A DNA stretch of 64,000 bases, from positions 62,001 to 126,000 of the forward strand of contig JALGXW010000012.1 in NCBI GenBank assembly GCA_029821875.1, in the 5' to 3' direction. Shown in pieces: positions 1,349 through 51,960 of the stretch (its first letter is position 1; each line of letters begins with the position of its first letter). The stretch is from Candidatus Hebobacterum abditum (GTDB lineage: Bacteria; Armatimonadota; Hebobacteria; Hebobacterales; Hebobacteraceae). Under the pieces are notes generated by a model. It had not been told where the DNA came from. It worked only from the letters and a program-made list of their open reading frames with translations, and ran no database searches. The position numbers and the translations under genes were made by a program.

Positions 1349-2341
1349 GTGGCACGTGACAGCACGGGGAGGCAACTGAGTGGTCGACGAGCGGCCGGGC
1401 TCGGCCAGCGCTGGGGACGGCCCGTGCGCTGTTGGCTTGGCATTCTCGCAACACTCACGCTTTCGGTCGCCTTCCTCGCCGCGGCAGCGGCAGGAGACGC
1501 GGTCAAGCTTCTCCCTGGGCCGGATTCGGTGCCCGGCTGGACGCTGAAAGAAGAGCCGCGGACCTACCGGCCCGATGATCTCTACGAGTACATCGACGGC
1601 AATGCGGATCTCTTCCTCTCCTATGGCTTCGTGCAGGTCACCGTGGGCGATTACGCTCCCACCGATGGTAGTGAAGGGTGGATCACCGTCGACGTCTATG
1701 ACATGGGCGCGCCACTCCACGCCTTCGGAGTCTACCGGGCTGAAAGGGCCGAGGGAGTTGACGCCGTGGAGGTCGGCACGGAGGGATACGCCTCCGACGG
1801 GATGTTCGCGTTCTGGAAGAGCCAGTACTACGTCAAGGCGCTGATGATTGACGGGGACGCGGCCGACACCGCGCAGCTCCTGGTCGAGAAGACAGTCGAC
1901 GGCATCTGCGGTGCCGCGGAAATGCCGGCGGAGCTTGAGCGGCTCCCCGCGGACCGGCGCGTTCCCGACAGCGAGCGCTACCTGAAGACGAGCGCCCTGG
2001 GCCACCGCTTTCTCGTCGAGGTCGTGAGCGCAGACTACTCGCTCTCGGAGCAGACAGCGACTCTCCATGCGGCCGACCTCGGCGATTCAGCAAAGGCGTC
2101 TGAGGCGCTGCTCAAGCTGCGCGAGTTCGAGGCCGGCTCAGGAGCGGCCGTCGAAGATCTCCTAGGCGTCGGCGTGGCGGCCTTCGGAACACGCGATCCC
2201 TACTACGGAGAGATGGTCGTAGGTCAGGTCGGCCAGTATGTAGCGATTGCCCTCAGCGAGGAGGCGGGACGGGACTCCCTGGCGGAGTTGGCAGGGACAG
2301 CGCTATCGGCCCTGCCTGACGAGACGGAGAAGGGGTGCTAG
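1349..2341 (+). CDS. Secreted DUF6599-like protein
   Basis: 330 residues from a GTG that follows AGGAGGGG by about 4 nt; reading further upstream adds an unconvincing basic stretch. An N-terminal arginine-rich segment and a hydrophobic stretch (about residues 28-48) ending in AAAAAG look like a signal peptide. The mature part opens with DDLYEYIDGNADLFLSYGF, a motif I associate with the DUF6599 family, which has no known function. The protein is probably exported to the periplasm or cell surface. It ends at 2341, where its TAG shares a CTAG tetranucleotide with the stop of the convergent nucleotidyltransferase gene. The family call rests on that motif only. Confidence 0.7.
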   Translation: MARDSTGRQLSGRRAAGLGQRWGRPVRCWLGILATLTLSVAFLAAAAAGDAVKLLPGPDSVPGWTLKEEPRTYRPDDLYEYIDGNADLFLSYGFVQVTVGDYAPTDGSEGWITVDVYDMGAPLHAFGVYRAERAEGVDAVEVGTEGYASDGMFAFWKSQYYVKALMIDGDAADTAQLLVEKTVDGICGAAEMPAELERLPADRRVPDSERYLKTSALGHRFLVEVVSADYSLSEQTATLHAADLGDSAKASEALLKLREFEAGSGAAVEDLLGVGVAAFGTRDPYYGEMVVGQVGQYVAIALSEEAGRDSLAELAGTALSALPDETEKGC

Positions 2342-3276
2342 GGAACCGGGCCGAGCTCGCCGAGCAGCAGCTCGTCGATGTTCCCGTAGTCTGCCTTCAC
2401 CCACGCGCGGTCCACGCCGGCGGCGATCATCGCGTCTGTGCATGCATCCCAGAGTCGGCGGCCATCCGGATTGTCGTCACTGCAGGACACGACCCCGCAC
2501 GCGGCGTCGAGTCTCTTCCACGGCTCTGGCTCCGGCTCTCCCAGCCCCACGATCTGCTCGACTGCCCGGAGCAGTAGAGGACAGAACTCCCTGCCGAGCT
2601 TCGTCTGTGGCGCGAAGCGCACCAGCTTCTCGGGGTAGGGGAACGGCCTTCCCTCCACCAAGAGGAACACGCGGAGCAGGTCGTTCACCGCGTTCAGCAC
2701 AGCGGTGGCAGCAGGCAGCAGATCCTCGTCCCCGCTGCGGTTATGCGGGTAGACTTCGATCGCCCAGTAGGTCGAGAGCAGCCAGCGGTACTTGATCTTG
2801 CCTACCAGAATATCGGGCGGGTATCCGCTGAATCCCTCGACGATGCTCCCGAACTGGCCGTTTGGGTCGGCGATCACCTTCGCGTTCGTGTAGATCCAGA
2901 GCCAGACATCGTCGTACTCTCGGAAACGGGCCTCCATCTCCTCCAAGGGCACAAGAGCGAAATGGGGCCGACTTCTGTGTCGGCCGAAATAGCGATCCCA
3001 GTTCTCATCCTTCAGCGTCACGAAGAAGGAACGTTCGGCCTTCACGAGGCCGGCTTCGAGCGACGCTCGATGAACCGATTCCCAGACGGACCGCGGGCAG
3101 AAGACGTCGATATCGACGTCGGACTCAGGCGCGTGCATGCCGAACGCTCGACTGCCGGTGAGCAGCACCGTGAAGAGGTCCCGGTGCCTGTCAGTGCCGG
3201 GGAGCGTGTAGATCTGCTCCGCGACGAAGCGGCGCAAAGCCTCTTCGTCGATTCCCGAGTCCTCGAACTCACCCAT
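2338..3276 (-). CDS. Nucleotidyltransferase-fold protein
   Basis: 312 residues. The N-terminus carries the polymerase-beta superfamily signature: G41-S42 followed by D53-V-D55 (GSRAFGMHAPESDVDIDVF), which binds the metal and nucleotide. The remainder is a helical domain of about 200 residues rich in W, Y and L, as in proteins that join this domain to a substrate-binding helical bundle. Target (small molecule, RNA or protein) is unknown. The ATG at 3276 overlaps the stop of the upstream dehydrogenase as TGATG and has a GAGGG Shine-Dalgarno; an ATG 18 nt upstream is less likely. Translational coupling suggests one operon with the dehydrogenase. Confidence 0.75.
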   Translation of the reverse strand: MGEFEDSGIDEEALRRFVAEQIYTLPGTDRHRDLFTVLLTGSRAFGMHAPESDVDIDVFCPRSVWESVHRASLEAGLVKAERSFFVTLKDENWDRYFGRHRSRPHFALVPLEEMEARFREYDDVWLWIYTNAKVIADPNGQFGSIVEGFSGYPPDILVGKIKYRWLLSTYWAIEVYPHNRSGDEDLLPAATAVLNAVNDLLRVFLLVEGRPFPYPEKLVRFAPQTKLGREFCPLLLRAVEQIVGLGEPEPEPWKRLDAACGVVSCSDDNPDGRRLWDACTDAMIAAGVDRAWVKADYGNIDELLLGELGPVP

Positions 3277-4394
3277 CAGTCGGCCCTCTTCCACGGCTCG
3301 ATGACCGCCTTGATCGCCTCTCCTGAGCGAACCGATTCCAGCGCCTGGTTCGCCTCATCGAGCCGGAATCGATGTGTGATGAGTCCCTCCCAGTGGAACT
3401 GATCGTTGTACCGCTCCTGTATGAGAAGCGCCCGATGTAGATGCGAGTAGTCGATCCCCCACACCCCCCGGATGTCGAGGTGCTTCTTGTTGATCTGGGT
3501 GTGCGGATTGACCTCAACCGGCCCGTGGTCCGTGTACTGGCCGGCGATGACGTAGATACCATTGTCTCGCACCAGGTCGAGACCTTCGGGCACTGCGGCA
3601 GGGCTCCCACTGGCCTCAATGGCAACATCGACGCCGCGGCCCTGGGTGGCGTCCACGACGGCCGCCTCGCGCTCAGCGAGCGTCGTGTTCTCCACGTCGA
3701 GGATGATGTCTGCGCCCATGCGGCGAGCGGCTTCGAGCCGCTTCTCGGGCGCGCCGATGGCGATGATTGTATGCGGTCCGCGCAGGCGGGCGAGAGCGAT
3801 CGCGCTCAGGCCGACAGGGCCGGCTCCCTGGACGAGGACGGTGTCGGCGAGCGAGATGTCAGCACGGTCAACCGCGTGCAGGGCCGTCGGCAGCCCGCAG
3901 CCGCCGCCGATGACGGTCTCTGAGGAGAGGGAATCCCGCAGTCGGATGATACGGACGCCGGGCTTCAGGTAGACGTATTCGCTCCAGCCCCCGAGCAGCC
4001 CGTCGTCTGCGCCACAGGTGATCCCATACACCTTGCGGCCGGGGCAACGAGTCGTCGCCTTTGCGACGAGGCAGTACCAGCACTTCCCACACGTGCCATG
4101 AACGTCCAGAAGCGTTGCGCGCTCACCCTCCCGGAGCTGCTCGCCATGGACATCCCGGACGTCGCCACGGACTTCCTCGATCTCGCCCACGACTGCATGG
4201 CCGGGGATCAACGGATAGGGCGTCTCGGCCAGCAGGCCTTGCTGCAGGTAGAGGTCGGTACCGCATACCTCGCTGTAGGTGACGCGCAGCAGCGCGGCGC
4301 CCTCCTCGAGGACCGGCCGCGGGTACTCTCGGACTTCAACGGGACTGTCTGGCGCCGGAATCGTAGCAGCGCGTACTGCCCGCGTGGCTGACAT
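3276..4394 (-). CDS. Zinc-dependent alcohol dehydrogenase (MDR family)
   Basis: 372 residues, normal for a medium-chain dehydrogenase. Visible features are the catalytic zinc ligand in EVCGTD (about C44), PLIPGHAVVGEIEE in which the usual GHE is GHA, four structural-zinc cysteines in CGKCWYC plus a downstream C, and the Rossmann motif VQGAGPVGLSAIALA. It should oxidise or reduce a sugar alcohol or similar polyol with NAD(P). The substrate is not evident. The ATG at 4394 has GGAGG 8 nt upstream. The following nucleotidyltransferase overlaps its stop by one base. Confidence 0.85.
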   Translation of the reverse strand: MSATRAVRAATIPAPDSPVEVREYPRPVLEEGAALLRVTYSEVCGTDLYLQQGLLAETPYPLIPGHAVVGEIEEVRGDVRDVHGEQLREGERATLLDVHGTCGKCWYCLVAKATTRCPGRKVYGITCGADDGLLGGWSEYVYLKPGVRIIRLRDSLSSETVIGGGCGLPTALHAVDRADISLADTVLVQGAGPVGLSAIALARLRGPHTIIAIGAPEKRLEAARRMGADIILDVENTTLAEREAAVVDATQGRGVDVAIEASGSPAAVPEGLDLVRDNGIYVIAGQYTDHGPVEVNPHTQINKKHLDIRGVWGIDYSHLHRALLIQERYNDQFHWEGLITHRFRLDEANQALESVRSGEAIKAVIEPWKRAD

Positions 4395-4464
4395 CAATCT
4401 CGCCTCCAGAGGCTCCCGTGGTAGACAGCGACGTGACTCAGCCTACGCGCGCTGCGCCGGCGAG

Positions 4465-4560
4465 TCAAGCACGGGCGCTGAGGGCGAGCTGATCGATGGC
4501 ATTGCTGAGGAACGAGCGTACTTCGTCGCAGGCGAGGGCGTCGTCAAATGCGTTGGGCAT
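4465..4560 (-). pseudogene. 31-codon ORF containing an internal piece of yifB
   Basis: Codons 12-31 encode DEVRSFLSNAIDQLALSARA, which differs from the intact YifB (10484-12016) at one residue (A for G) over 20 positions. The nucleotide match covers about 4466-4530 against 10611-10668. The first 11 codons (MPNAFDDALAC) are unrelated to yifB. The little ORF has a good ribosome site, AGGAGGG 6 nt before the ATG, and begins 15 nt after the methyltransferase stop. It ends with TGA directly after LSARA. It is either a yifB relic that happens to sit behind a ribosome site, or a translated micropeptide. I classify it as a fragment because no independent function is known. Confidence 0.6.
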
Positions 4561-4575
4561 TTGCTTCCCTCCTCA

Positions 4576-5154
4576 TCAAGTCACTCCCCTCTCCAGCGCC
4601 ATGCCATAGTGATAGGGAGGAAGGTCAATAATGCCCGGCGGCAAAAGACGGAAGCCCACAGACTCGGCCCACGTCTGGCAGTCGTTCGGTCGCGGCCGGA
4701 TCTCTATCGATGGGCCTCGAGGGGTCGAGGGGTCATAGTTCCAGTGCATGATCGCGACTATCCCTCCTGGACGAAGCACTCGGAGAGCTTCAACCAGAAG
4801 CACATCCGGACATTGGGCATGGAGAATATTGAATAGCATTGCACAGTCGTTGCTGCAAGCGGATAGGCCTGTTCCCTCGGTCACGAAATCCCGCAGGCAG
4901 ACATCGACATTCGAGAGCGCCGCAGCTCTGGCCTTGGCTTGGGTTACCCTGATCATCTCCGGATCAATGTCAATGGCGTGGACAGTCCCGGACACAATGC
5001 GCGCTGCAGGGATTGTGAACGTACCGTACCCGCAACCGAACTCGACCACGTCTCCGCAAGTTCCCGTCAGGCCGAGCGCAGGAAGCGTCGCCGTCGGATC
5101 GAAGAAGCTGTCCCACGTTGCCTCGTCGGGCATGCCGCTCTCACGGGTCTTCAT
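4576..5154 (-). CDS. Class I SAM-dependent methyltransferase
   Basis: 192 residues. Motif I is VVEFGCGYGTFTIPAA (about residues 36-51), followed by the acidic residue of motif II in HAIDIDPEM, a motif IV-like DCAMLFNILH and the post-I element LRPGGIVAIMHW. This is the Methyltransf_25/11 type of small-molecule methyltransferase; the acceptor is unknown. The ATG has GGAG 7 nt upstream. It lies between the yifB-derived 31-codon ORF downstream and OsmC upstream on the same strand, within the segment bounded by yifB fragments. Confidence 0.85.
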   Translation of the reverse strand: MKTRESGMPDEATWDSFFDPTATLPALGLTGTCGDVVEFGCGYGTFTIPAARIVSGTVHAIDIDPEMIRVTQAKARAAALSNVDVCLRDFVTEGTGLSACSNDCAMLFNILHAQCPDVLLVEALRVLRPGGIVAIMHWNYDPSTPRGPSIEIRPRPNDCQTWAESVGFRLLPPGIIDLPPYHYGMALERGVT

Positions 5155-5365
5155 CCTCGGACTCCATACGGTCTGCGCCGCCCCAGCCGAGAATCACCGC
5201 AAACGCTTGCAGACAACACTCGATGGCCTTCATTCGTGGCAAAGGTACTTGTGACGTAGAGAAGCAATGCCATCTCCGCGCGGACGCCGTCCTGCGCCCA
5301 TCCGAAATGGGTGGGAGGGGAGCTCACCTCCTGCCCGTTGCCCCGCTCGTGCATTACGAACGCCG

Positions 5366-5803
5366 TTACTCCAACGCCGCCTCTCTCTCAGTCTCCAGTC
5401 CGGGCCTCAGCAGATTGCTCACAGGACACCCTTTGTCCGCCTCCTCGGCGAGCTGGCGGAACGTCGCCTCGTCCAGCCCCGGCACCCTCCCTCGCACCTG
5501 CAGATGCATCTTCGCTATCCTGAACCCACCATCCGTGGGGACGAGCGAGCACGTCGCCTTCGTCGTGATGCTCTCCGGCCTGTGTCCCTTCTCGCTCAGC
5601 GTATGCGCGAACGCCATGCTATAGCACGCCGCATGCGCCGCCGCGATCAGCTCCTCCGGGTTCGTCCCCTTCGCGTCTCCAAACCGAGTCTTGAAGGTGT
5701 AGCTTTCCCGCGCGAGTGTCTCACTCTCGGTGCTTACGACCCCATCCCCTGCCTTCAGGTCCCCCCGCCACGTCGCCTCTCCCGTTCGCTTGACGTCTGC
5801 CAT
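5366..5803 (-). CDS. osmC: OsmC/Ohr-family peroxide reductase
   Basis: 145 residues, the usual length of OsmC. The two redox cysteines are present: C60 in HAACYSMAF and C126 in KGCPVSNLL. OsmC proteins reduce organic hydroperoxides in the cytosol, with electrons from a dithiol partner. The ATG at 5803 is preceded by GGAGG at 5 nt; a GTG 18 nt upstream is less likely. The AACYSMAF form fits the OsmC branch better than Ohr. The gene lies alone between the methyltransferase and a decayed yifB fragment. Confidence 0.9.
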   Translation of the reverse strand: MADVKRTGEATWRGDLKAGDGVVSTESETLARESYTFKTRFGDAKGTNPEELIAAAHAACYSMAFAHTLSEKGHRPESITTKATCSLVPTDGGFRIAKMHLQVRGRVPGLDEATFRQLAEEADKGCPVSNLLRPGLETEREAALE

Positions 5804-6231
5804 GTGTGCCTCCGTTGACACCAGATCCTGGCCTCGCCGCCGAAGCCCGGGCTGAGGCCTCCAATCAACTTATGATGGGAGGCACACCTTCCTTGCCCTG
5901 GCCACCGGCTCGCTGTCACCTCTTTCCCCCTCTGTCTCACCAAGTGCACACTCGATTCCGCTCACGCCCACAGCTTCCGATCCAGCCCGGGTACTGGATC
6001 GCCTCGGCGACATCCGGCAGGCCGATCTCGTTGGCGCCGTTCAGACCGGCGGTGGTTCTGCTGAGGTCCACAACACGGTCGAAGGCACAGGGACACCACC
6101 GTCGGGGGAGCTACGCCATTCCTGATCCGCCGCGGGGATATCCCCCGTGATTTCTACGGTAGGAACGGCCGGTCATGTCGCCGAACGTAACGACACGTAT
6201 TTGGCGCGCGCGTTAGCGTCGGAGGTGTGGA
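5804..6231. other. 428-bp intergenic region holding a yifB fragment
   Basis: Region between the divergent osmC and radical SAM genes. It contains the decayed yifB 3' fragment at 5963-6088. The rest shows no convincing reading frame. Promoters for the two flanking genes should lie here, but I could not pick out a clear -35/-10 pair. Confidence 0.6.
5963..6088 (-). pseudogene. Decayed yifB 3'-end fragment
   Basis: About 126 bp match the last 42 codons of yifB, from the AFDRVV segment to the stop codon. The conceptual translation runs DRVVDLSRTTAGLNGANEIG and then LPDVAEAIQYPG. Relative to the other copies, one base is missing near the end (ATCC-AGCCCGGG on the + strand), so the reading frame is lost for the last dozen codons although the TGA position is retained. 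The EIGLP variant is shared with the copy at 7518-7907, not with the intact gene. No start signal is evident and this piece is probably not expressed. Confidence 0.8.
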
Positions 6232-7359
6232 GTGGCCTTGCAGGCGGCCATGCGATCCGCGGCGAGACAGGTGAAGTGGCGGCTCCGGTACGGGAGCACG
6301 CTTCGCCGGATTCGCAACGGCCTCCCGCTGAGGAAGGCCCCGTCGTCGGTGCAGATAGGCACAGACGACCACTGCAACTACCGGTGTGTCATGTGTCCCT
6401 TCCATTCCTACAACCGCTCTTCGCCGATAGAACGGCATCGCATGCCGTGGGATCTGCTGGCGCGAACACTGAGGGAATTAGCCTCCCTCGGCACAAAGAG
6501 CATCGACATCTGCGGCATAGGCGAGCCGCTGCTCCATCCCAACGCGGTGGACACCTTCCGTCTCATCAAGCAGCTGGGTATGGAGTGCCGTCTCATCACG
6601 AATGGCAGCTTCCTAACGCGCGAGCTGTGCGACGAGTTCTTGCGCATCGCGCTCGACCGGCTCCGCGTCAGCACCAATTCGGCCACAGACGAGACCCACC
6701 ACACCATCACTATGGCTCCCTTGGGAGAGCGGTCTGAGATCATGGCGAATGTCCGGTATCTCATTCGGCGCCGGAACGAAAGTGGGTCCGAGCTGCCCGT
6801 CGTTGGCACCACGATCGCCATCCACAAGCTGAACTACAGGGAAGTGGCGAAGCTCGGGATGGAGGCAGCCGAGCTGGGGATCGATCACCTGGAGTTCCTT
6901 CCGCTGGCGGTTCACCCAGCAAGCGCTGAGCTTGCCCTTGCCGCGGAAGAACGCGCGGAAGCGCGACGCCAGATCCAGCAGGCGGACGGCGCCATGCGCG
7001 CGGCCGGCAAGGAGACCACAGCGGGCGAGTACCTGACCTTCGAGGATGCCGACGACTGGACGAAAGAGTGGTTCCACACCGTGCCCTGCTATATCGGCCA
7101 GTGCTTCTCCCGCTTCACGGCGAATGGCGATGTCTACCCGTGCTGCCCTTGCACGCGCGTGATGGGCAACTTGGGGGAGCGGTCGTTCGGGGAGATCTGG
7201 ACATCACCGAAGTACCGTTCCTTCCGGCTGGAGGGGATGGACCTACCGAACCGCGATGAGCCGCTTGAGGAGTGCTTCTGCAGTACCTGCTATCACCTCG
7301 CGCAGATCGCGCTGTACCACGGCAACCTCATGGCCGGGCATCTGGACGGTCTTCCCTGA
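6232..7359 (+). CDS. Radical SAM/SPASM-domain protein
   Basis: 375 residues. C48-x3-C52-x2-C55 (CNYRCVMC) is the radical SAM [4Fe-4S] motif, and ICGIGEPLLHP is the downstream GEPLL-type element. A C-terminal SPASM-like cysteine set follows: C286, C291, C304, C305 and C307, then three more near residues 348-353 (CFCSTC). Such proteins modify peptides or serve cell-envelope biosynthesis; the substrate is unknown. The GTG start has GGAGG 6 nt upstream. The gene is monocistronic and stands between two yifB fragments, without a neighbouring peptide precursor that I can see. Confidence 0.85.
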   Translation: MALQAAMRSAARQVKWRLRYGSTLRRIRNGLPLRKAPSSVQIGTDDHCNYRCVMCPFHSYNRSSPIERHRMPWDLLARTLRELASLGTKSIDICGIGEPLLHPNAVDTFRLIKQLGMECRLITNGSFLTRELCDEFLRIALDRLRVSTNSATDETHHTITMAPLGERSEIMANVRYLIRRRNESGSELPVVGTTIAIHKLNYREVAKLGMEAAELGIDHLEFLPLAVHPASAELALAAEERAEARRQIQQADGAMRAAGKETTAGEYLTFEDADDWTKEWFHTVPCYIGQCFSRFTANGDVYPCCPCTRVMGNLGERSFGEIWTSPKYRSFRLEGMDLPNRDEPLEECFCSTCYHLAQIALYHGNLMAGHLDGLP

Positions 7360-7517
7360 ACGCACCTCGCTTCGCCACTGCGTGTGCCCGGCGAGGGCCG
7401 ATGAAGCCGGCCTGAGGGATGTGCACCCCCGGGCCAAACCGGGAGGGTCACCTACTATCAGACTCGTGCCAGCACACTATCTGGTGCCACGCTCTGCTGC
7501 AGTCCCGGCGGCTGTGT

Positions 7518-7907
7518 CTACGCCCACAGCTTCCTGTCCAACCCTCGGTACTGGATTGCCTCCGCGACATGCGGCAGGCCGATCTCGTCGGCGTCGTCCA
7601 GATCGGCGATGGTCCTGCTGAGCTTGACGACGCGGTCGAAGGCGCGAGCGCTGAGGCCGAGCTGGTCGATGGCATTGCTGAGGAAGGAGCGCACTTCATC
7701 GCTGATCGGGCAGAACTGCTTCAGGTGCCGCGGGAGCATGTGGGCGTTGCAGTAGATGCCGGCTCCGGCGAAGCGCCCGGCCTGAAGCTCGCGCGCCCGC
7801 GCGACGCGGACACGCACGGCGCTCGACGGCTCGCCGTTGGCTGGAGTCAGGAGTTCCTCCTTCTTCAGCCGGGGCACCCCGATGTGGATGTCAACTCGGC
7901 CATTCAT
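7518..7907 (-). pseudogene. In-frame detached YifB C-terminal domain
   Basis: Codons from VDIHIGVPRL to LDRKLWA correspond to the last ~125 residues of the intact YifB and differ at 11 positions, with no frameshift. DNA homology spans 7518-7899 and stops abruptly between CAACTCGG and the next base. The stop is TAG, not the TGA of yifB. The piece matches the Mg_chelatase C-terminal domain almost exactly and lacks the AAA+ core. An ATG at 7907, or a GTG at 7955, could start a stand-alone protein, though no strong ribosome site precedes either. The intact frame suggests recent origin or selection. Confidence 0.7.
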
Positions 7908-7946
7908 GCCCACCCAAGTTGGGTAACCGTCAGGTCCCTCTGCGGG

Positions 7947-7975
7947 TTGACGCACAGGCCGCTCTCTGCTACAGT
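7947..7975 (+). promoter_or_regulatory. Sigma70-type promoter for the secretin gene
   Basis: TTGACG (7947-7952), a 17-bp spacer and TACAGT (7970-7975). Transcription would begin near 7982, about 290 nt before the secretin start codon. Seen by eye only. Confidence 0.5.
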
Positions 7976-8272
7976 GTGCAGGAAGAGTCGGCCAGGGCTA
8001 GGCGACGGACAACGCCATAGTCTCTGCCAGCGGTCCCAGACTCGCGCTGTGTCCTCGTTCCGGGCATTCCCGTAATCCCTTCACGTTGGCGTCCTTCCAG
8101 ATCTCCGCCTGGTCAGCACGTCAAGACAGGGACGAGCGGTGGCCCTCGCTCTCCCACGCTGAAAGTGGCTGCCGACGCAAGAGCAGGATGCGCTCCAGAC
8201 GGAAATCGAGCGGCGGCATCACGGCGGACTGGCTGCAACAGCCGCTCACACACGGAACGGAGGGGGAAGACC
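7956..8272. other. 317-bp region upstream of the secretin gene
   Basis: This stretch holds the -10 box above and a long untranslated leader. The secretin reading frame stays open upstream of its start to about 8165, but that part is arginine- and cysteine-rich without a signal peptide and lacks a ribosome site, so I do not count it as coding. I see no recognised riboswitch. Confidence 0.45.
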
Positions 8273-10306
8273 ATGCCGACCACGGCAGGCAAGCGTCGTC
8301 GAGATCTGATGCTTCTCCTAGCTGGTATGATGCTGCTCGCGATTGGCCCGAGGACCCCGTCTCTCACGGCCCCCTGCTTCGCGTCGGATCCCGCTGGCAG
8401 ACCTGTTCAAGAGGGCCCCAAGCCGGGTGCCGCAGACACATCCGCTCAAGCGGGCTCCAAGCGGGAGGCCCCCCGGGAGATCGTCACCAAGTTCTGGGCT
8501 CCGGGCCCCAAGTGCAGGTTCGGCCCAGACAGGTCAGACGGAGAGGGGATGTGCGAGTGCGACACAGCGGCAAGGGCTCTCTTAGCCATCTATGAAGGGG
8601 CTCTGAGCATGTACTCCGTTGGGGCGAACACCTTCGTCATCGGCGGGGCGGAAACAGTCGTTGACTCCGCTTCACACGTGTTGGATGAGAACTGCGCGCG
8701 CGGCCGAGGCGAGGGACTATGCACCAAGGTCTGGCGACTGACCTTCCTCAGGAGCGACCCCAGACAGCCTCCGGACTGGGTGGAGGCGCTGAACAGGATC
8801 TACAGCCCTCCCGGCAGCCCGATCATCGAGCATAGGCCCCGCTATCTCATCCTGCACGGACCGCCCGACCGTGTGGAGGAGGTCGAGAACTTGCTGATAC
8901 TGCTCGATGCGCCATGGCCCCAGGTGCGGTTGGACATGTGGGCCGTGCAGATCAGCGGCGAGAAGGGGCAGGTGTCAGGTTTGGCGTTGGAGGCGATGGA
9001 GCTGGTCAGTAGAGCCCGAGAGGACATGGCCTGGGTTCAACACATGCTGAATGAGATCGTGAGGCAATACTGGGGCCCGCCTCGGTGGCCTGAGCCTTGC
9101 GGTGCTGGGCCACTCAAAGAAGAAACGAAGCGACGCCTTCGGGACATCGGTTTCGACCCCGACCCCAATCGCCCACTCGCTCTCCACGAGGCGCTCATCT
9201 TCGTGGCACTATCGGGGAAGTCCGGGCAGATCATCGAGGACCTTGACAGCAGCCTTTGCGAACGCCTACAGGAACGCCTACCTAGGAAGGAGAGACCTAA
9301 GGAGCCCAGAGCGTACTTCCGGCGATTGGCGCGCGCCTACGGGGTGAGGATGCCTGGGCAGAACCAGGAGCGGCGTGCGGAGGACGTCTGCATCGAGAAA
9401 CGCTGCATCATGGAGTTCGCATCCGCGTGGCAAGATGGGGAGCCCCGTCGGGCGCGCATGTGGGCCGCGATGGTAGATGCCACGGTGGAGTCAAAGCTGG
9501 ACGCCTACGCTCAGGACCTCCAGGAGGCACTCATGCTTCCGCTACTGGAGGGGCTGATGGATCTAGCGGGCGACGGTCGCTCCGGAGGCGTGTCTCTTGT
9601 CGGCAAGACCCACCTTGTCGTCACTAGTACTCTGCCGGCGACTCTGGAACCTAAGATGAAGTCCTATGTTGAGACGACTCGCCGCAAGCCCCTGACCCTC
9701 GACTCTCTGACGCAGATGCTGAGCAAGACGACGGAGGAGAAGGGCGTTCTCGCCGAAGTGCTCCCCAAGGCCTCGCCGTTGGAGTTGCTCGCGGTGGGGG
9801 AGCTACTCTCGCCACCCGAACCCACGTTTTCGGAGATCGCCCCCGGGATCAACATCAGAGTGATCCCAACCGCCTTCCCGAGCTGCGGGGAGGTGCGGTT
9901 GAAACTGGACGCCTCCTTTGGCGTGAGCGTGACGCCGTTGAAACCCGGCCGGGACTCCCCTTACGTTGGCTTCATCGAAAGCCACGAGGTCAAGACTGAC
10001 GCGGCAGTGAAGGGGTTTGATCTGTTCGAGATCTCCTCTTTCTCCATAGCCACCTCCCACGCGCGTCCGCCCTGGGTGTTTCCTGTGCTTGGCCAGTTGC
10101 CTCTGGTCGGCCGGCTGTTCCAGTTGTCGCGTTCCGACGCGGTCACTAGCCACGAGAGCATCATATTGGCGAACGCTGTTATCGTCCCGCGCATTCTGCA
10201 TCTGGCCCACTTCTACAGGTCAACCGCAGACTACGCGGGGGCCAGCGACCTCCCGGTCGCGGCAGACTGTAGGTGTCGGCCGCCCGTAGGTGTCGGCCCC
10301 CCATAG
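8273..10306 (+). CDS. Lone secretin-like outer-membrane protein
   Basis: 677 residues from an ATG with GGAGGGGG 6 nt upstream. Residues about 8-35 form a signal peptide (basic residues, then MLLLAGMMLLAIG). Residues about 186-227 (YLILHGPPDRVEEVENLLIL and onward) resemble a secretin N1/N3 ring domain. Residues about 525-650 resemble the beta-barrel core: PGINIRV, then VFPVLGQLPLVGRLF, the analogue of the VPLLGxIPxLGxLF hallmark, and ILANAVIVPRI. Between them lies a helical insert of about 300 residues. Secretins form gated pores for type II/III secretion or type IV pili. No pilM-Q or gsp gene is adjacent, so the partner is unknown. The C-terminal tail is altered by a 17-bp tandem repeat. Confidence 0.6.
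   Translation: MPTTAGKRRRDLMLLLAGMMLLAIGPRTPSLTAPCFASDPAGRPVQEGPKPGAADTSAQAGSKREAPREIVTKFWAPGPKCRFGPDRSDGEGMCECDTAARALLAIYEGALSMYSVGANTFVIGGAETVVDSASHVLDENCARGRGEGLCTKVWRLTFLRSDPRQPPDWVEALNRIYSPPGSPIIEHRPRYLILHGPPDRVEEVENLLILLDAPWPQVRLDMWAVQISGEKGQVSGLALEAMELVSRAREDMAWVQHMLNEIVRQYWGPPRWPEPCGAGPLKEETKRRLRDIGFDPDPNRPLALHEALIFVALSGKSGQIIEDLDSSLCERLQERLPRKERPKEPRAYFRRLARAYGVRMPGQNQERRAEDVCIEKRCIMEFASAWQDGEPRRARMWAAMVDATVESKLDAYAQDLQEALMLPLLEGLMDLAGDGRSGGVSLVGKTHLVVTSTLPATLEPKMKSYVETTRRKPLTLDSLTQMLSKTTEEKGVLAEVLPKASPLELLAVGELLSPPEPTFSEIAPGINIRVIPTAFPSCGEVRLKLDASFGVSVTPLKPGRDSPYVGFIESHEVKTDAAVKGFDLFEISSFSIATSHARPPWVFPVLGQLPLVGRLFQLSRSDAVTSHESIILANAVIVPRILHLAHFYRSTADYAGASDLPVAADCRCRPPVGVGPP
10269..10302 (+). 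repeat. 17-bp tandem duplication at the end of the secretin gene
   Basis: GTAGGTGTCGGCCGCCC at 10269-10285 is followed directly by a copy at 10286-10302 with one mismatch. The unit is not a multiple of three, so it shifts the frame. It produces the present end CRCRPPVGVGPP and its stop. Confidence 0.8.
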
Positions 10307-10483
10307 GACTCGTTCCCCCAGTGAAGATCCTGATCGAGCCATGGGAGAAGAGACGAGCGATGAATGGCCGGGTGACCCCGCCGAGGGCCGCGGTACGCCA
10401 GCCGCTAAAGCTCTCTGCTTCGCTTCCCCTCACCAAGGCTACGCGGGACAAGCCGGTGGGCAAGCCCGTCATACCCCATCGAA

Positions 10484-12016
10484 TCAGGCCCACAGTTTGC
10501 GGTCGAGCCCCCGATACTGAATCGCCTCGGCTACATGCTGCAGCGCGATCTGCTCCGCGCCATCCAGATCGGCGATGGTCCTGCTGAGCTTCACGACGCG
10601 GTCGAAGGCGCGAGCGCTGAGGCCCAACTGGTCGATGGCATTGCTGAGGAAGGAGCGCACTTCATCGCTGATCGGGCAGAACTGCTTGAGGTGTCGGGGA
10701 AGCATGTGTGCGTTGCAGTAGATGCCGGCCTCGGAGAAGCGCCCGGCCTGAAGCTCGCGCGCCCGTGCGACTCGACTTCGAACGGCGTTCGACGGCTCGC
10801 CGTTGGCTGGCGTCAGGAGTTCGTCCTTCTTCAGTCGGGGCACCTCGATGTGGATGTCAACTCGGTCGAGGAGTGGCCCCGAGATGCGCTGGAGGTAGCG
10901 TCTGATCTTCGTCACGGAGCAGGAGCAGCTTCGTGTCGCGTCCATATAGTACCCGCAGGGGCAGGGATTCAGCGCGGCGACGAGCATCACGCGCGCCGGA
11001 AAGTCGGCCGTGCCCGCCACCCGACTCACGCTCACGACCCCATCCTCCAGCGGCTGGCGCATGACTTCGAGCGCGTCCCGGCCGAACTCCGGCAGCTCAT
11101 CCATGAACAGCACGCCATGGTGAGCGAGGGAGATCTCTCCGGGCGTCGGGATGGTGCCGCCGCCTGCCAGGCCGGCTGCGGAGATCGTGTGGTGTGGCGA
11201 CCGAAAGGGGCGTGTCGTCATGAGGCCTCTGCCGGCCGGGAGCTTCCCACTGATGCTGTATACCTTGGTAACCTCGAGCGCCTCTTCCATACGCAGGGGT
11301 GGGAGCACAGTCGGGATTCGCATGGCCAGCATGGTCTTGCCCGATCCGGGCGGACCGACCATGACGACGTTATGGCCGCCCGCCGCGGCGACCTCCAGGG
11401 CGCGCTTCACATGTGGCTGCCCCTTGACCTCCGAGAAGTCGATCGGATACTCGGGATCGGACAGGTGCCACTCTCCGGCGGAGGAGGGGGCCGGTCGGCG
11501 TTGATCGGGGTCGGCCACTACTTCCGCCGCCTCCCAGAGCGTGCGGACCGGATAGACAGAGAGACCCTCAACGACGGTGGCCTCGGCGACGTTGTCAGCG
11601 GGCACGATGAGTCCGGCACGGCGGGCAGCGCGCGCTGCCAGTGCAATGGGCAGGACTCCAGAGATCGGGCGGACCGATCCATCCAGGGAGAGCTCCCCCA
11701 CGGCGACCAGCTTCTCCATATCCTCTCCGGCAATCTGCTCCGTGGCTGCGAGAACTGCGAGGGCGATGGGGAGGTCGAAGGCGGGGCCCTCCTTGCGGAT
11801 GTCGGCCGGGGCGAGGTTGACCGTTACCCGGTGGGCCGGAAAGGAGAAGTTCGAGTTGCGGACGGCGGAGGCCACCCGCTCGCGCGCCTCCTGCACGGCC
11901 GTGTCGGGGAGCCCGACAATCGTCACCTTCGCCAGGCCGGTCCCAACGTCCACCTGGGTCTGAACGAGGTAGGCTTCGATGCCGAGCACGGCACAGCTAT
12001 CTATGCGAGCGAGCAT
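10484..12016 (-). CDS. yifB: YifB/ComM-family AAA+ Mg-chelatase-like ATPase
   Basis: 510 residues from MLARIDSCAVLGIEAYLV, the conserved start of the family, so I discard about 47 upstream codons that are proline- and arginine-rich. An N-terminal ChlI-like domain (1-170) is followed by the AAA+ core with Walker A GPPGSGKT, Walker B-type VLFMDELPEF, and the zinc-type LNPCPCGYY...CSC segment, then the Mg_chelatase C-terminal domain (about 385-510). ComM is a hexameric helicase that extends heteroduplex during natural transformation; dprA is present at 55432. Parts of its 3' end recur at 4465, 5963 and 7518. It is transcribed away from the SLH gene. Confidence 0.95.
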   Translation of the reverse strand: MLARIDSCAVLGIEAYLVQTQVDVGTGLAKVTIVGLPDTAVQEARERVASAVRNSNFSFPAHRVTVNLAPADIRKEGPAFDLPIALAVLAATEQIAGEDMEKLVAVGELSLDGSVRPISGVLPIALAARAARRAGLIVPADNVAEATVVEGLSVYPVRTLWEAAEVVADPDQRRPAPSSAGEWHLSDPEYPIDFSEVKGQPHVKRALEVAAAGGHNVVMVGPPGSGKTMLAMRIPTVLPPLRMEEALEVTKVYSISGKLPAGRGLMTTRPFRSPHHTISAAGLAGGGTIPTPGEISLAHHGVLFMDELPEFGRDALEVMRQPLEDGVVSVSRVAGTADFPARVMLVAALNPCPCGYYMDATRSCSCSVTKIRRYLQRISGPLLDRVDIHIEVPRLKKDELLTPANGEPSNAVRSRVARARELQAGRFSEAGIYCNAHMLPRHLKQFCPISDEVRSFLSNAIDQLGLSARAFDRVVKLSRTIADLDGAEQIALQHVAEAIQYRGLDRKLWA

Positions 12017-12351
12017 CAGGTCGTTTTTCTGCGTGCTTCCGTCGGCCTCCTTTGGCGGCCGACTCGCATGGGGTCGCCTGCGGCGGTGGATCCGATCAAC
12101 CCAGGTGCCCGCGCCCGCTTTGCCTGGTTCGAACTGCGGGAGTGGAGGAGGACCCATGGCGGGAAAGGGGGGGCAGCAGCGCCAGGTAGCCGGACCGAGC
12201 GAATCAATGCCACTCTCCAGGTGGTGCTGCGCCTCGGCGCAGAGGGGTGGTCGTGCGCGCCGGTATGCAGTACTATGAGAGCTAGTACAGCGTGGGAAGC
12301 GCTGCTACTACCATCGGCAACTTCACATTGTCAGGAAGGGACCAGGGCAGC
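12017..12351. other. 335-bp divergent intergenic region
   Basis: Region between yifB and the SLH/beta-helix gene. It holds an inverted repeat GTACTA-N7-TAGTAC (12270-12288) about 65 bp before the SLH gene, possibly an operator. No convincing small gene is present. The homology-free N-terminal frame of yifB reads through part of it. Confidence 0.4.
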
Positions 12352-15397: not shown

Positions 15398-16168
15398 TTA
15401 GTCTCGGTAGGGGAAGATGCCGTCGATGGCGGCCTCGCTTAGTTCCTTGAGCGCCTGCGCGAGCCGGTCGACGGCGACCTCGACCATCTTCCTGCCCTTC
15501 TCGGCCGTCGCCTTCGTCGGGTCGCCGATCCCCGTGTTGACGGTGTATAGGTGCCAGGGACTGACGAAGGACATGCCTTGCTTCGAGAAGATCGACCTAC
15601 GGGTCCGCGTCGGCTTCGCCGCCTCCATCTGTGCGAACTCCGGCGCCAGGTGCAGCATGATGGAGGTTTCAGTCTCACAGGCGTGACCGCGTTCCTTCGT
15701 CTCGGCCAGCTCCAACTCGACATCGTGCGAGAGGGCCCACTGCTCGACCAGGCCCACAAAGCTCTCGGACGTGGCGGCTAGCTCGCGCTGGGCCGCCAGC
15801 AGCACCGACGTATTACCACCATGCCCATTGAGTATCACGGACTTCCGGATGCCGTTCTGCTCTGCGGTCCTAACGACGTCGCCGACGATATCCATCAGCG
15901 TGCGGGGCCGCAGGCTCATGGCCCACGGGCACTCGCGTACGTTCTCGTTGCAGCTCATCGGAAGAGTGGGAAGCAGAAGGCACTTCGCGCCCCGCTCGTT
16001 GGCCTCATCCACCGCCATTTCTGCGAAGCGCGTGATGGCGAACGTATCCGTCCCGTAGGCGAGGTGGAAGGCATGTGGCTCCGTCGATCCGATGGGGAAC
16101 ACGGCCACCTCGAATCCCCCCTCGGTTACCTCGGGCATCCTCAAGTGAGCCAAGCGCGCCTCTGCCAT
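15398..16168 (-). CDS. Creatininase-family amidohydrolase
   Basis: 256 residues. Metal-site motifs of the creatinine amidohydrolase family are visible: E30-P-H32 in GSTEPHAFHL, D41 in YGTD, H116 in NGHGGN, and GHACETETS (161-169). Family members hydrolyse cyclic amides or formamides (creatinine, mycofactocin precursor, FAPy intermediates); the substrate cannot be assigned here. Of two ATGs 6 nt apart, the inner one is chosen because GGAGGAGGG lies 6 nt before it. Its first codons and upstream ~75 bp are duplicated at 16751-16837. Confidence 0.85.
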   Translation of the reverse strand: MAEARLAHLRMPEVTEGGFEVAVFPIGSTEPHAFHLAYGTDTFAITRFAEMAVDEANERGAKCLLLPTLPMSCNENVRECPWAMSLRPRTLMDIVGDVVRTAEQNGIRKSVILNGHGGNTSVLLAAQRELAATSESFVGLVEQWALSHDVELELAETKERGHACETETSIMLHLAPEFAQMEAAKPTRTRRSIFSKQGMSFVSPWHLYTVNTGIGDPTKATAEKGRKMVEVAVDRLAQALKELSEAAIDGIFPYRD

Positions 16169-16242
16169 CAGCATCCCTCCTCCGCATGTGAGGCGGCCCT
16201 TCGCCGCGCCGCGACCCCCACCCTCCCGCCGTTGCTTGCCGA
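16157..16242. repeat. Direct repeat copy 1 (5' end of creatininase gene)
   Basis: About 86 bp covering the first codons, ribosome site and upstream region of the creatininase-family gene. It recurs in the same orientation at 16751-16837 with roughly a dozen mismatches and small indels. Shared landmarks are TCTGCCATCA, CCATCCCTCCTCCG or its GCATCC variant, AGGCGGCCCTTCGCCG, and the terminal TTGCTTGCC. Confidence 0.8.
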
Positions 16243-16399
16243 CCCCTGGCGCGCGCCAACAGTGCCACGAGGCGGTATACTCTCGAATGGCGGCGGAGTT
16301 CGCCCCAGGAGGGAGGGAGCGGCTGGCGGCGAACCTGCTGGCGAGGGGTGCTGAGTCAGCGCGCTGCTACTCCCCACTCTGTCATACGGAGGCGATCCC

Positions 16400-16732: not shown

Positions 16733-16750
16733 GTGCCGCACTGGCCAACC

Positions 16751-16837
16751 GCGCCTCTGCCATCACCATCCCTCCTCCGCGCGTGAGGCGGCCCTTCGCC
16801 GCCGCGCGACCCCCGCCCTTGCCCCCTTGCTTGCCAA
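16751..16837. repeat. Direct repeat copy 2, upstream of murJ
   Basis: Second copy of the repeat at 16157-16242. On the minus strand it reproduces the creatininase ribosome site and the start MxMAEARLA, after which the frame continues into unrelated sequence opposite the zinc-ribbon gene. Its right end (TTGCTTGCCAAC) supplies the -35 element of the murJ promoter. Confidence 0.8.
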
Positions 16838-16860
16838 CGTATCGGCCGTGCGGCTATAAT
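16831..16860 (+). promoter_or_regulatory. Promoter for a leaderless murJ transcript
   Basis: TTGCCA (16831-16836), an 18-bp spacer and a consensus TATAAT (16855-16860). The murJ GTG begins 7 nt after the -10 box, so the expected first transcribed base is at or next to the start codon. There is no room for a ribosome site. Confidence 0.6.
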
Positions 16861-21536: not shown

Positions 21537-22880
21537 ATGGCACGCATAGCGGCTGCTTGTGCAGGTGTTCTGGTCGTTTCGATCGCCCTCGTCGCAGGAC
21601 TGGGGAACGCCCAACTCACGCGCTTGGTTGGGCCCGATCAAGAGGCCATCCTCTACGACGGCGATCTCCAGCTGGACTCGGGTGGGATCGATGTCCTGTC
21701 CTGGGGCAGCGGCCGTGCGGAGGCGGTCTACGATGAGACATACGTGGGGCCCCAAGTGTTGAAGGTGACCTCACAGGGACTCTACCAAGGCATCGTCCTC
21801 CAGCTAGGCCGCCCGGCAACGCTTGAGGAGCTTGCTTCCTCTGGCAACGCCTACCTCGATGTTCGAGTGCTCCCCGGTCAGCCATCCCTCGAGTACCGCA
21901 GACAGCAGGCAGAGATGCTGCGCCAGCAGGCGCGCGCTGGAATGGGTATGCGCGGCGGCCGCGGTGGCGGCGGCATGCGCGGAGGTGGCGGCGGCCGCGG
22001 TGGTGGCATGCGTGGCGGTGGCGGCGGCATGCGCGGCGGAGGTGGCGGCATGCGCGGTGGCGGCGGGATGCGCGGCGGCGGCATGCGCGGTGGCGGCGGG
22101 ATGCGCGGCGGCGGCATGCGTGGCGGTGGTGGTGGCATGCGTGGTGGTGGTGGTGGCATGCGCGGTGGCGGCGGGATGCGCGGCGGCGGTATGCGCGGTG
22201 GTGGTGGCATGCGCGGTGGCGGCATGCGCGGTGGTGGTGGCATGCGCGGTGGTGGCATGCGCGGCGGTGGCGGCATGCGCGGCGGCCGTGGCGGCATGAC
22301 AGCGGGCCGTGCGCCGGGCTCCGCGGCCGCGCCAACGGACGCCAAAGTCTTCACGGCTCGCAACCTGCGGCTGGTCCTGTTCACAGACGAAGGCATGATG
22401 GAGGCAAGCTCGGCGCCGATTACTGAAGCCTTCAAGGATGAGCGAGGGTGGGTGCCCGTTACTGTGTCACTGTCCGACATGACTGGCGCGGAGGGCGCTG
22501 CCGAGGTCCGGGCAATTGGTGTCTTCACTGACGAATCAGATGTGTTCTACCTCGGTCGCGTGAGCCTGCTGGCCGACAGCAAGCCGATTGAGGTCACGAT
22601 CACGGCCGAGCCGCTCTTCGCGCGTCCAGATGAGCTGATCACTTTCTCAGCCTCGCTGAGAGGCGGGCCGGTCAGTCCGGATATCTCGTGGGACTTCGAC
22701 AGCCAAGGCGGCATCGAGCGGCAGGCTCTGGGGCGCGAAGTGCAGTTCCTGTACAAGGAGCCTGGCGACTACGTAGCTACCTGTACTGTGACGGACAAGT
22801 CGGGCATGCGTGAGCCGGCCACGGCGACGATTGGAATCCGGGTGGAAGGGTCGCCTGAGCCTGTAGAGTATGCCTGGTAG
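21537..22880 (+). CDS. Secreted MRGG-repeat protein with PKD-like domain
   Basis: 447 residues. A signal peptide covers about 1-25 (ending GLGNAQ). A beta-rich region covers about 30-130. Residues about 138-253 are a low-complexity array of M-R-G-G-G units of 5 or 6 residues. After a short linker come a second beta-rich region (about 265-350) and a PKD/Ig-like domain (about 355-435) with ISWDFDSQGG and YVATCTVTDKSG. The arginine-glycine array resembles RGG nucleic-acid or polyanion-binding tracts, but the protein is exported, so an envelope or matrix role is more likely. It begins 18 nt after hemW and overlaps pyrK by 11 nt. No family is recognised. Confidence 0.75.
   Translation: MARIAAACAGVLVVSIALVAGLGNAQLTRLVGPDQEAILYDGDLQLDSGGIDVLSWGSGRAEAVYDETYVGPQVLKVTSQGLYQGIVLQLGRPATLEELASSGNAYLDVRVLPGQPSLEYRRQQAEMLRQQARAGMGMRGGRGGGGMRGGGGGRGGGMRGGGGGMRGGGGGMRGGGGMRGGGMRGGGGMRGGGMRGGGGGMRGGGGGMRGGGGMRGGGMRGGGGMRGGGMRGGGGMRGGGMRGGGGMRGGRGGMTAGRAPGSAAAPTDAKVFTARNLRLVLFTDEGMMEASSAPITEAFKDERGWVPVTVSLSDMTGAEGAAEVRAIGVFTDESDVFYLGRVSLLADSKPIEVTITAEPLFARPDELITFSASLRGGPVSPDISWDFDSQGGIERQALGREVQFLYKEPGDYVATCTVTDKSGMREPATATIGIRVEGSPEPVEYAW
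21948..22295 (+). repeat. MRGG(G)n coding minisatellite
   Basis: About 348 bp of imperfect 12-, 15- and 18-bp units of the type ATGCGCGGCGGTGGC. Unit lengths are all multiples of three, so the frame holds. All six frames are nearly stop-free here, giving spurious Pro/Met/Arg and Ala/Cys/Val frames. Confidence 0.95.
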
Positions 22881-51869: not shown

Positions 51870-51905
51870 GCCTGTCCTAGAAGCACAGGAGAGCCAGAGA
51901 CCGGA

Positions 51906-51932
51906 ACGGAGGCCGCCTGAGGCGGCCTCCGT
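51906..51932 (+). terminator. Terminator after ftsZ
   Basis: ACGGAGGCCGCC-TGA-GGCGGCCTCCGT forms a perfect 12-bp stem with a 3-nt loop and ends in TTT. The stem is symmetrical, so it may also serve the convergent permease gene that ends at 51961. Confidence 0.75.
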
Positions 51933-51960
51933 TTGCTGGTGGGTGGGGGGGGGAGGCCAG

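Follow-up and report, generated by a model that had tools for sequence, protein, structure and literature searches.

Serial insertion into the yifB/comM gene of an Armatimonadota bacterium: a probable fossil of gene-restoring integration

An intact yifB gene and three detached pieces of it

The window analysed here is a 64,000-nt stretch of a contig of Candidatus Hebobacterum abditum, a member of the Armatimonadota. It contains an intact yifB/comM gene of the Mg_chelatase family on the minus strand (10484..12016; Pfam PF01078, PF13541 and PF13335). Codon numbers refer to the longest open reading frame, 557 aa starting at 12157; 47 must be subtracted from them for the likely ATG at 12016. A blastn search of the window with yifB returned exactly three further significant matches, all of them on the yifB strand, in keeping with the original prediction that pieces of the 3' part of this gene lie on the strand of the parent. 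F3 (7518..7899, minus strand) is a displaced yifB 3' end comprising codons 431-557 and the stop (match 7522-7899, 378 nt, 88.9% identity, gapless, E 3e-141). Its frame is still open, and the resulting 145-aa open frame includes a complete PF13335 domain. F2 (5962..6086, minus strand), with codons 517-557 and the stop, is frameshifted (126 columns, 78.6% identity, one gap, E 2e-23). F1 (4469..4529, minus strand) is an internal piece of 61 nt (85.2% identity, E 1e-13). The limits first predicted for F3 and F2 were nearly identical to these, while F1 had been drawn at 4465-4560 and is shorter.

The right ends of F3 and F2 coincide with the parental yifB stop, exactly as predicted for two of the pieces, whereas F1 stops short and holds codons 497-517 alone. 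The left ends of F3 and F2 differ (codons 431 and 517). F1 ends at 10608 of the parent, next to the start of F2 at 10609; the two pieces therefore abut within yifB. A yifB search of the whole 4.3-Mb genome, proposed together with the prediction, found no piece beyond F1, F2 and F3. Samples from the rest of the genome, about 280 kb in all, contained no comparable set of spaced direct repeats; they gave two single pairs, of 61 and 78 bp, and weak pairs at about 70% identity, some of which form a group that is probably a paralogous gene family. The window itself has imperfect tandem repeats at 21932-22334 (73-83% identity in self-comparison) and a 29-nt near-perfect palindrome at 51905-51933 (28/29 self-complementary). 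As already noticed from the sequence, no recombinase is visible: the window's contig has no PF00589 or PF00239 match, and no recombinase, att repeat or mobility gene was found within the array.

Inserted units and a substituted yifB end relative to a same-genus genome

The only same-genus genome found (G001) served as the single empty-site reference. Its gene row reads yifB, osmC, alcohol dehydrogenase and nucleotidyltransferase, without yifB pieces. In the window, osmC, the neighbour of yifB in this genus and contiguous with it in G001, lies at 5366..5821 (minus strand, PF02566), and the zinc-dependent alcohol dehydrogenase that forms the outer anchor of the comparison lies at 3276..4397 (minus strand, PF00107/PF08240), within a segment (2274-4376) that aligns to G001 at 90%. 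Window positions 5280-6086, comprising F2, its flank and osmC, align to the yifB end and osmC of G001 as one unbroken 809-nt block at 87% identity (L053 15742-16550, against window 6086-5280), which begins exactly at GCCTTCGACCG. Because this alignment is unbroken, F2 is the native yifB end, which the insertion of 6087-10483 has separated from the rest of yifB. The latter segment is thus an insertion inside yifB relative to an empty site in which the native end is still joined to the native flank. The original prediction had asked whether relatives keep the same order of pieces and genes with no presence/absence variation; G001, being empty, does not.

The contiguity of F2 and osmC in an independent genome also bears on whether the array could be an assembly chimera of related strains within a metagenome bin. 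The assembly is a draft of 103 contigs with 3.7% estimated contamination, which leaves room for such an artefact. However, the array lies on one 198-kb contig and its pieces are 79-89% identical to yifB, too diverged for strain collapse, making a chimera highly improbable.

The insertion holds two units of only 1.4 and 2.6 kb, with F3 between them. Unit 1 (6087..7517) carries a radical SAM/SPASM gene (6232-7359, plus strand), identified by profile search, whose best relative is 41% identical. Unit 2 (7900..10483) carries a secretin-like gene (8165-10306, plus strand) that neither G001 nor any family member searched possesses; its assignment is weak, with PF00263 matching at E 0.003 only, below the curated cut-off. 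No orthologue of either cargo gene was found in G001-G008, a set that includes the family member G002 (CP070816.1, Armatimonadota bacterium bin117). Each unit has a single radical SAM or secretin-like gene and no integration or transfer genes, in keeping with the loss of such genes from a CIME. The GC content of the units is similar to that of the rest of the sequence, which points to related donors.

A separate insertion relative to G001 occupies 4377..5279 and holds a methyltransferase gene (4576-5154, minus strand, PF13649) together with F1. It sits between osmC and the dehydrogenase, splitting a terminator-like hairpin behind osmC, and we read it as a related but separate event; F1 is thus no simple displaced gene end. 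Circular-integration and tandem-duplication schemes for the order F2-osmC-methyltransferase-F1 were weighed on paper and none was established. Among the genes predicted to lie between the pieces, the methyltransferase, osmC and the radical SAM gene are supported by Pfam, while the secretin match is weak. Elsewhere in the window, the 5' end of a creatininase gene is present as a 95-nt direct repeat of 87% identity (16149-16243 and 16744-16838), with about 0.5 kb between the copies that is absent in G001. Both copies match a single G001 stretch (L053 8377-8469), and the outer one keeps the native upstream flank. This segment looks like the same kind of insertion, at the 5' end of a gene.

The 3' end that yifB carries at present also differs from that of its relative. 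Through codon 431, yifB is 93.1% identical to G001 (1092/1173), but identity falls to 88.3% over codons 432-516 and 82.5% over the last 126 nt, or 86.4% for the replaced part pooled (330/382; Fisher p = 1.3e-4 against the 93.1% part). A control comparison of G001 with G002, split in the same three ways, was flat (77.7, 77.0 and 76.8%). F3, at 90.6 and 84.9% identity, resembles G001 more than the present yifB end does. The step at codon 431 marks the present end (codons 432-557; 10484-10865, minus strand) as a diverged functional substitute. Between F3 and yifB, dN is 0.055 and dS 0.383. The resulting dN/dS of 0.14 indicates that the two diverged mostly while each still served as a functional gene end, identifying F3, at the level of its substitution pattern, as another yifB end that diverged while functional. 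The locus thus combines an intact target gene, a substituted 3' end and displaced old ends, F2 and F3.

These values allow two further explanations to be weighed. In the first, slippage or unequal crossing over would have duplicated part of yifB locally, after which the copies decayed and unrelated DNA inserted between them. This would account for pieces that are all on one strand and near the parent, and had been offered as the alternative in the original prediction. It conflicts with the G001 comparison, in which F2 is native and the intervening region inserted, with the purifying selection under which F3 diverged although it is now a fragment, and with the present yifB end, not the fragments alone, being the odd one out. 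Taken together, the dN/dS of F3 and the divergent present end lead us to reject duplication with decay, which we consider extremely improbable, and fit an end swap by incoming DNA. The second explanation is that F3 is a functional stand-alone gene for an Mg_chelatase_C protein and not a remnant. While its open frame, complete domain and low dN/dS would agree with this, low dN/dS is also expected from a former life within yifB; F3 lacks a conserved start region, F2 is frameshifted, F1 is internal, and several comparable pieces in another genome (G055) hold stops or deletions. We regard a stand-alone gene as very unlikely.

Detached yifB ends and recombinases in other genomes

A first survey matched yifB in 58 Armatimonadota genomes, of which at least 8 also have detached C-terminal pieces of the gene: the window's genome (G000), G003, G009, G015, G031, G038, G045 and G055. 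Outside the phylum, such pieces occur in a draft genome of the Desulfobacteraceae (L144) and in Spirosoma spitsbergense (L136). Where pieces and gene are on one contig, the pieces lie downstream and on the yifB strand in every genome but G009, where they are inverted and upstream (L052 10459-10992). In a test drawn from 80 loci fetched solely for holding yifB, a high-identity detached end was present downstream of 2 of 63 testable yifB genes and of 0 of 390 other genes; the only other C-terminal match among the 390 was a single 68% paralogue pair. As a small unbiased count, this excess is suggestive, not overwhelming. The left boundaries of the pieces recur in unrelated genomes near window codons 400 (CPCG), 497, 515-517 and 536-538, a recurrence that conserved sequence blocks could explain in part.

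The surroundings of these pieces vary. In G038, successive yifB 3' pieces are spaced 0.55-0.8 kb apart (L046 3766-5805) and, by eye, an IS200-like transposase with palindromic ends, a HicA/HicB-like pair and an unknown gene lie between them. Spirosoma spitsbergense has HipB/HipA-like genes, the HipA apparently frameshifted, between yifB and a 93% identical detached end of codons 515-557 (L136 11546-13375). The Desulfobacteraceae piece, 3.8 kb downstream of yifB, joins codons 400-428 straight to 536-557 with an overlap of about 10 nt (L144 13786-13922).

Recombinases do occur beside such ends in G031. This genome encodes three large serine recombinases (PF00239 and PF07508; Resolvase, Recombinase and zinc-ribbon domains) that end 0-1.6 kb upstream of yifB ends starting at or near the CPCG codons. 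A fourth belongs to the segment L153 8370-11855, in which what appears to be a DUF1778/GNAT toxin-antitoxin pair comes next, and then a weak yifB piece (codons 536-556). The yifB ends in G031, G055 and G045 start at one place, the TG(T/C)CC of the CPCG codons, and a similar non-yifB arm precedes CPCG at four junctions, two each in G055 and G031. In G045, a 78.7-kb contig (C14) begins and ends inside yifB (L048, L057, L058, L049, L059, L050), and its junction end has 141 identical nt in common, from CPCG, with the end of the contig that holds the yifB 5' part; the two yifB 3' ends have diverged to 91% identity. The natural reading of these contig ends, whose joins are 74-nt overlaps, is that the 5' part of yifB is followed by an island that carries a 3' end of its own and then by the displaced 3' end. 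Contig C14 has no PF00589 or PF00239 match; it carries glycosyltransferase-like genes at one end and an extra yifB piece inside. Judging from these junctions, yifB is very probably a target of site-specific, gene-restoring insertion in Armatimonadota.

The window differs from these cases. Its breaks fall at codons 431 and 517, not near 400, and no large serine recombinase adjoins a junction as in G031. The non-yifB arms beside F2 and F3 had no match to the G031 and G055 junctions or to two serine-recombinase contigs of the window's own genome, whose recombinases share only 25-28% similarity with the G031 enzymes. Used as a probe across the phylum (n=251), the G031 recombinase matched in G031 and one other genome, and with only 2 of 251 genomes matched this family was rejected as the source of most yifB pieces. 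Since the window breaks at other codons and has no recombinase, a site-specific mechanism can only be inferred for it.

An integrase may not have been needed at all. In homology-facilitated illegitimate recombination after DNA uptake, DNA of a relative would pair inside yifB while its other side is joined by chance, thereby adding foreign DNA, replacing the 3' end and displacing the old one. An array without a recombinase, the different breakpoints of F3 and F2, inserted DNA that is host-like in GC, as from a close relative, and a second insertion in the window flanked by a duplicated gene end, that of creatininase, are all consistent with this process. However, it gives no reason why yifB should be singled out, as the survey and the 2/63 against 0/390 count suggest, and leaves unexplained both the left boundaries found across genera and the serine recombinases beside the G031 pieces. 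We consider it the main rival reading, if clearly less likely than integration.

A probable fossil of serial integration and its relation to known systems

We favour, as the probable reading, that the array is the now decayed fossil of serial gene-restoring, site-specific integrations into the 3' part of yifB, similar to that of e14 into icd. Mobile DNA would have brought its own in-frame copy of the yifB end and pushed the old end downstream. The unit with the radical SAM gene may have entered by a crossover near codon 517, displacing F2, and the unit with the secretin-like gene afterwards, by a crossover near codon 431 that displaced F3. The putative site-specific recombinase could have been carried by the elements or have acted in trans, and the units would since have been stripped of mobility genes, leaving a tandem accretion of CIME-like remnants. 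The repeated, 3'-end-regenerating insertion first proposed for the locus is thereby strengthened by the empty site, the substituted end and cargo without orthologues, though weakened by the lack of a recombinase in the window, by the small size of the units, by the poor fit of F1 and by there being a single genome of the genus for comparison.

The closest analogue is the e14 prophage, which inserts in E. coli icd and leaves the old end as icdC (PMC11148124). In both cases the insertion lies inside a protein gene, the element brings a 3' end that differs slightly, and the displaced one is left as a pseudogene. The e14 case involves one event, 165 bp and an identified prophage, whereas the array has at least two serial events, up to 378 bp displaced and no prophage or integrase left. 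The array would, by analogy, work like e14/icd with accretion.

The 'magnesium chelatase' target genes named in reports on large serine recombinases are presumably, from family knowledge, yifB/comM. For 12.4% of predicted site-specific large serine recombinases, the reported target is an Mg chelatase/ATP-dependent protease homologue (Durrant et al., PMC10083194), and sr1WO of phage WO inserts in an Mg chelatase gene that is reportedly disrupted, its parts lying on both sides of the insertion (PMC9203015). The target gene family is identical to that of the window, and the G031 pieces adjoin such recombinases at the CPCG codons. Unlike the phage WO target, yifB in the window is restored, with no large serine recombinase and with breaks at codons 431 and 517.

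Tandem accretion at gene ends, integrase-less remnants included, is known for ICEs, IMEs and CIMEs (PMC5704250, PMC7563491), which likewise form arrays bounded by target-end repeats from successive insertions. The window array differs in having no identified conjugation or mobilisation relic and no demonstrated att repeat, and its repeats are diverged and 60-380 nt long. Similar arrays are formed by the ssrA genomic islands of Dehalococcoides, about half of which still carry an integration module (PMC3146451): tandem units lie downstream of one gene, are bounded by its 3'-end fragments and have a serine recombinase, but the target is a tmRNA gene and the repeat 20 bp. Tn6022/AbaR elements and the I-B1 CAST share the target gene, using comM by Tn7-like transposition, and Tn6022 inactivates it (PMC11406308), in agreement with the original prediction that comM is an island target in Acinetobacter and is interrupted there; in the window, yifB is restored and no Tn7-like gene was noted. 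With neither an integrase nor a CPCG junction, the array cannot be assigned to any one of these element families.

A broader and more doubtful proposal is that the 3' half of comM/yifB serves as a multi-position attachment hub across several phyla, at which integrase-less cassettes accrete, each with an in-frame gene end. Just as speculatively, such cassettes would often be toxin-antitoxin pairs, and a housekeeping coding sequence would act as the repeat of a cassette array. Hints come from the 0.5-1.7-kb units with HicAB-, HipBA- or GNAT-type pairs seen by eye beside pieces in G038, Spirosoma and G031, and from the left boundaries recurring in unrelated genomes.

comM/yifB is already known as a landing site for mobile DNA, and on the favoured reading the array is a clear fossil of an established process, not of a new one. 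It offers a readable stratigraphy of repeated gene acquisition at a single locus, in which each displaced gene end shows where a crossover took place and when in the series, a signature that can be searched for in any genome. The hotspot has been familiar chiefly from surveys of recombinases and from Wolbachia phages, and is seen here in Armatimonadota with a functional target gene. Should the small units, which lack an integrase, turn out to be mobilised in trans, a coding sequence would here form the base of a cassette platform.
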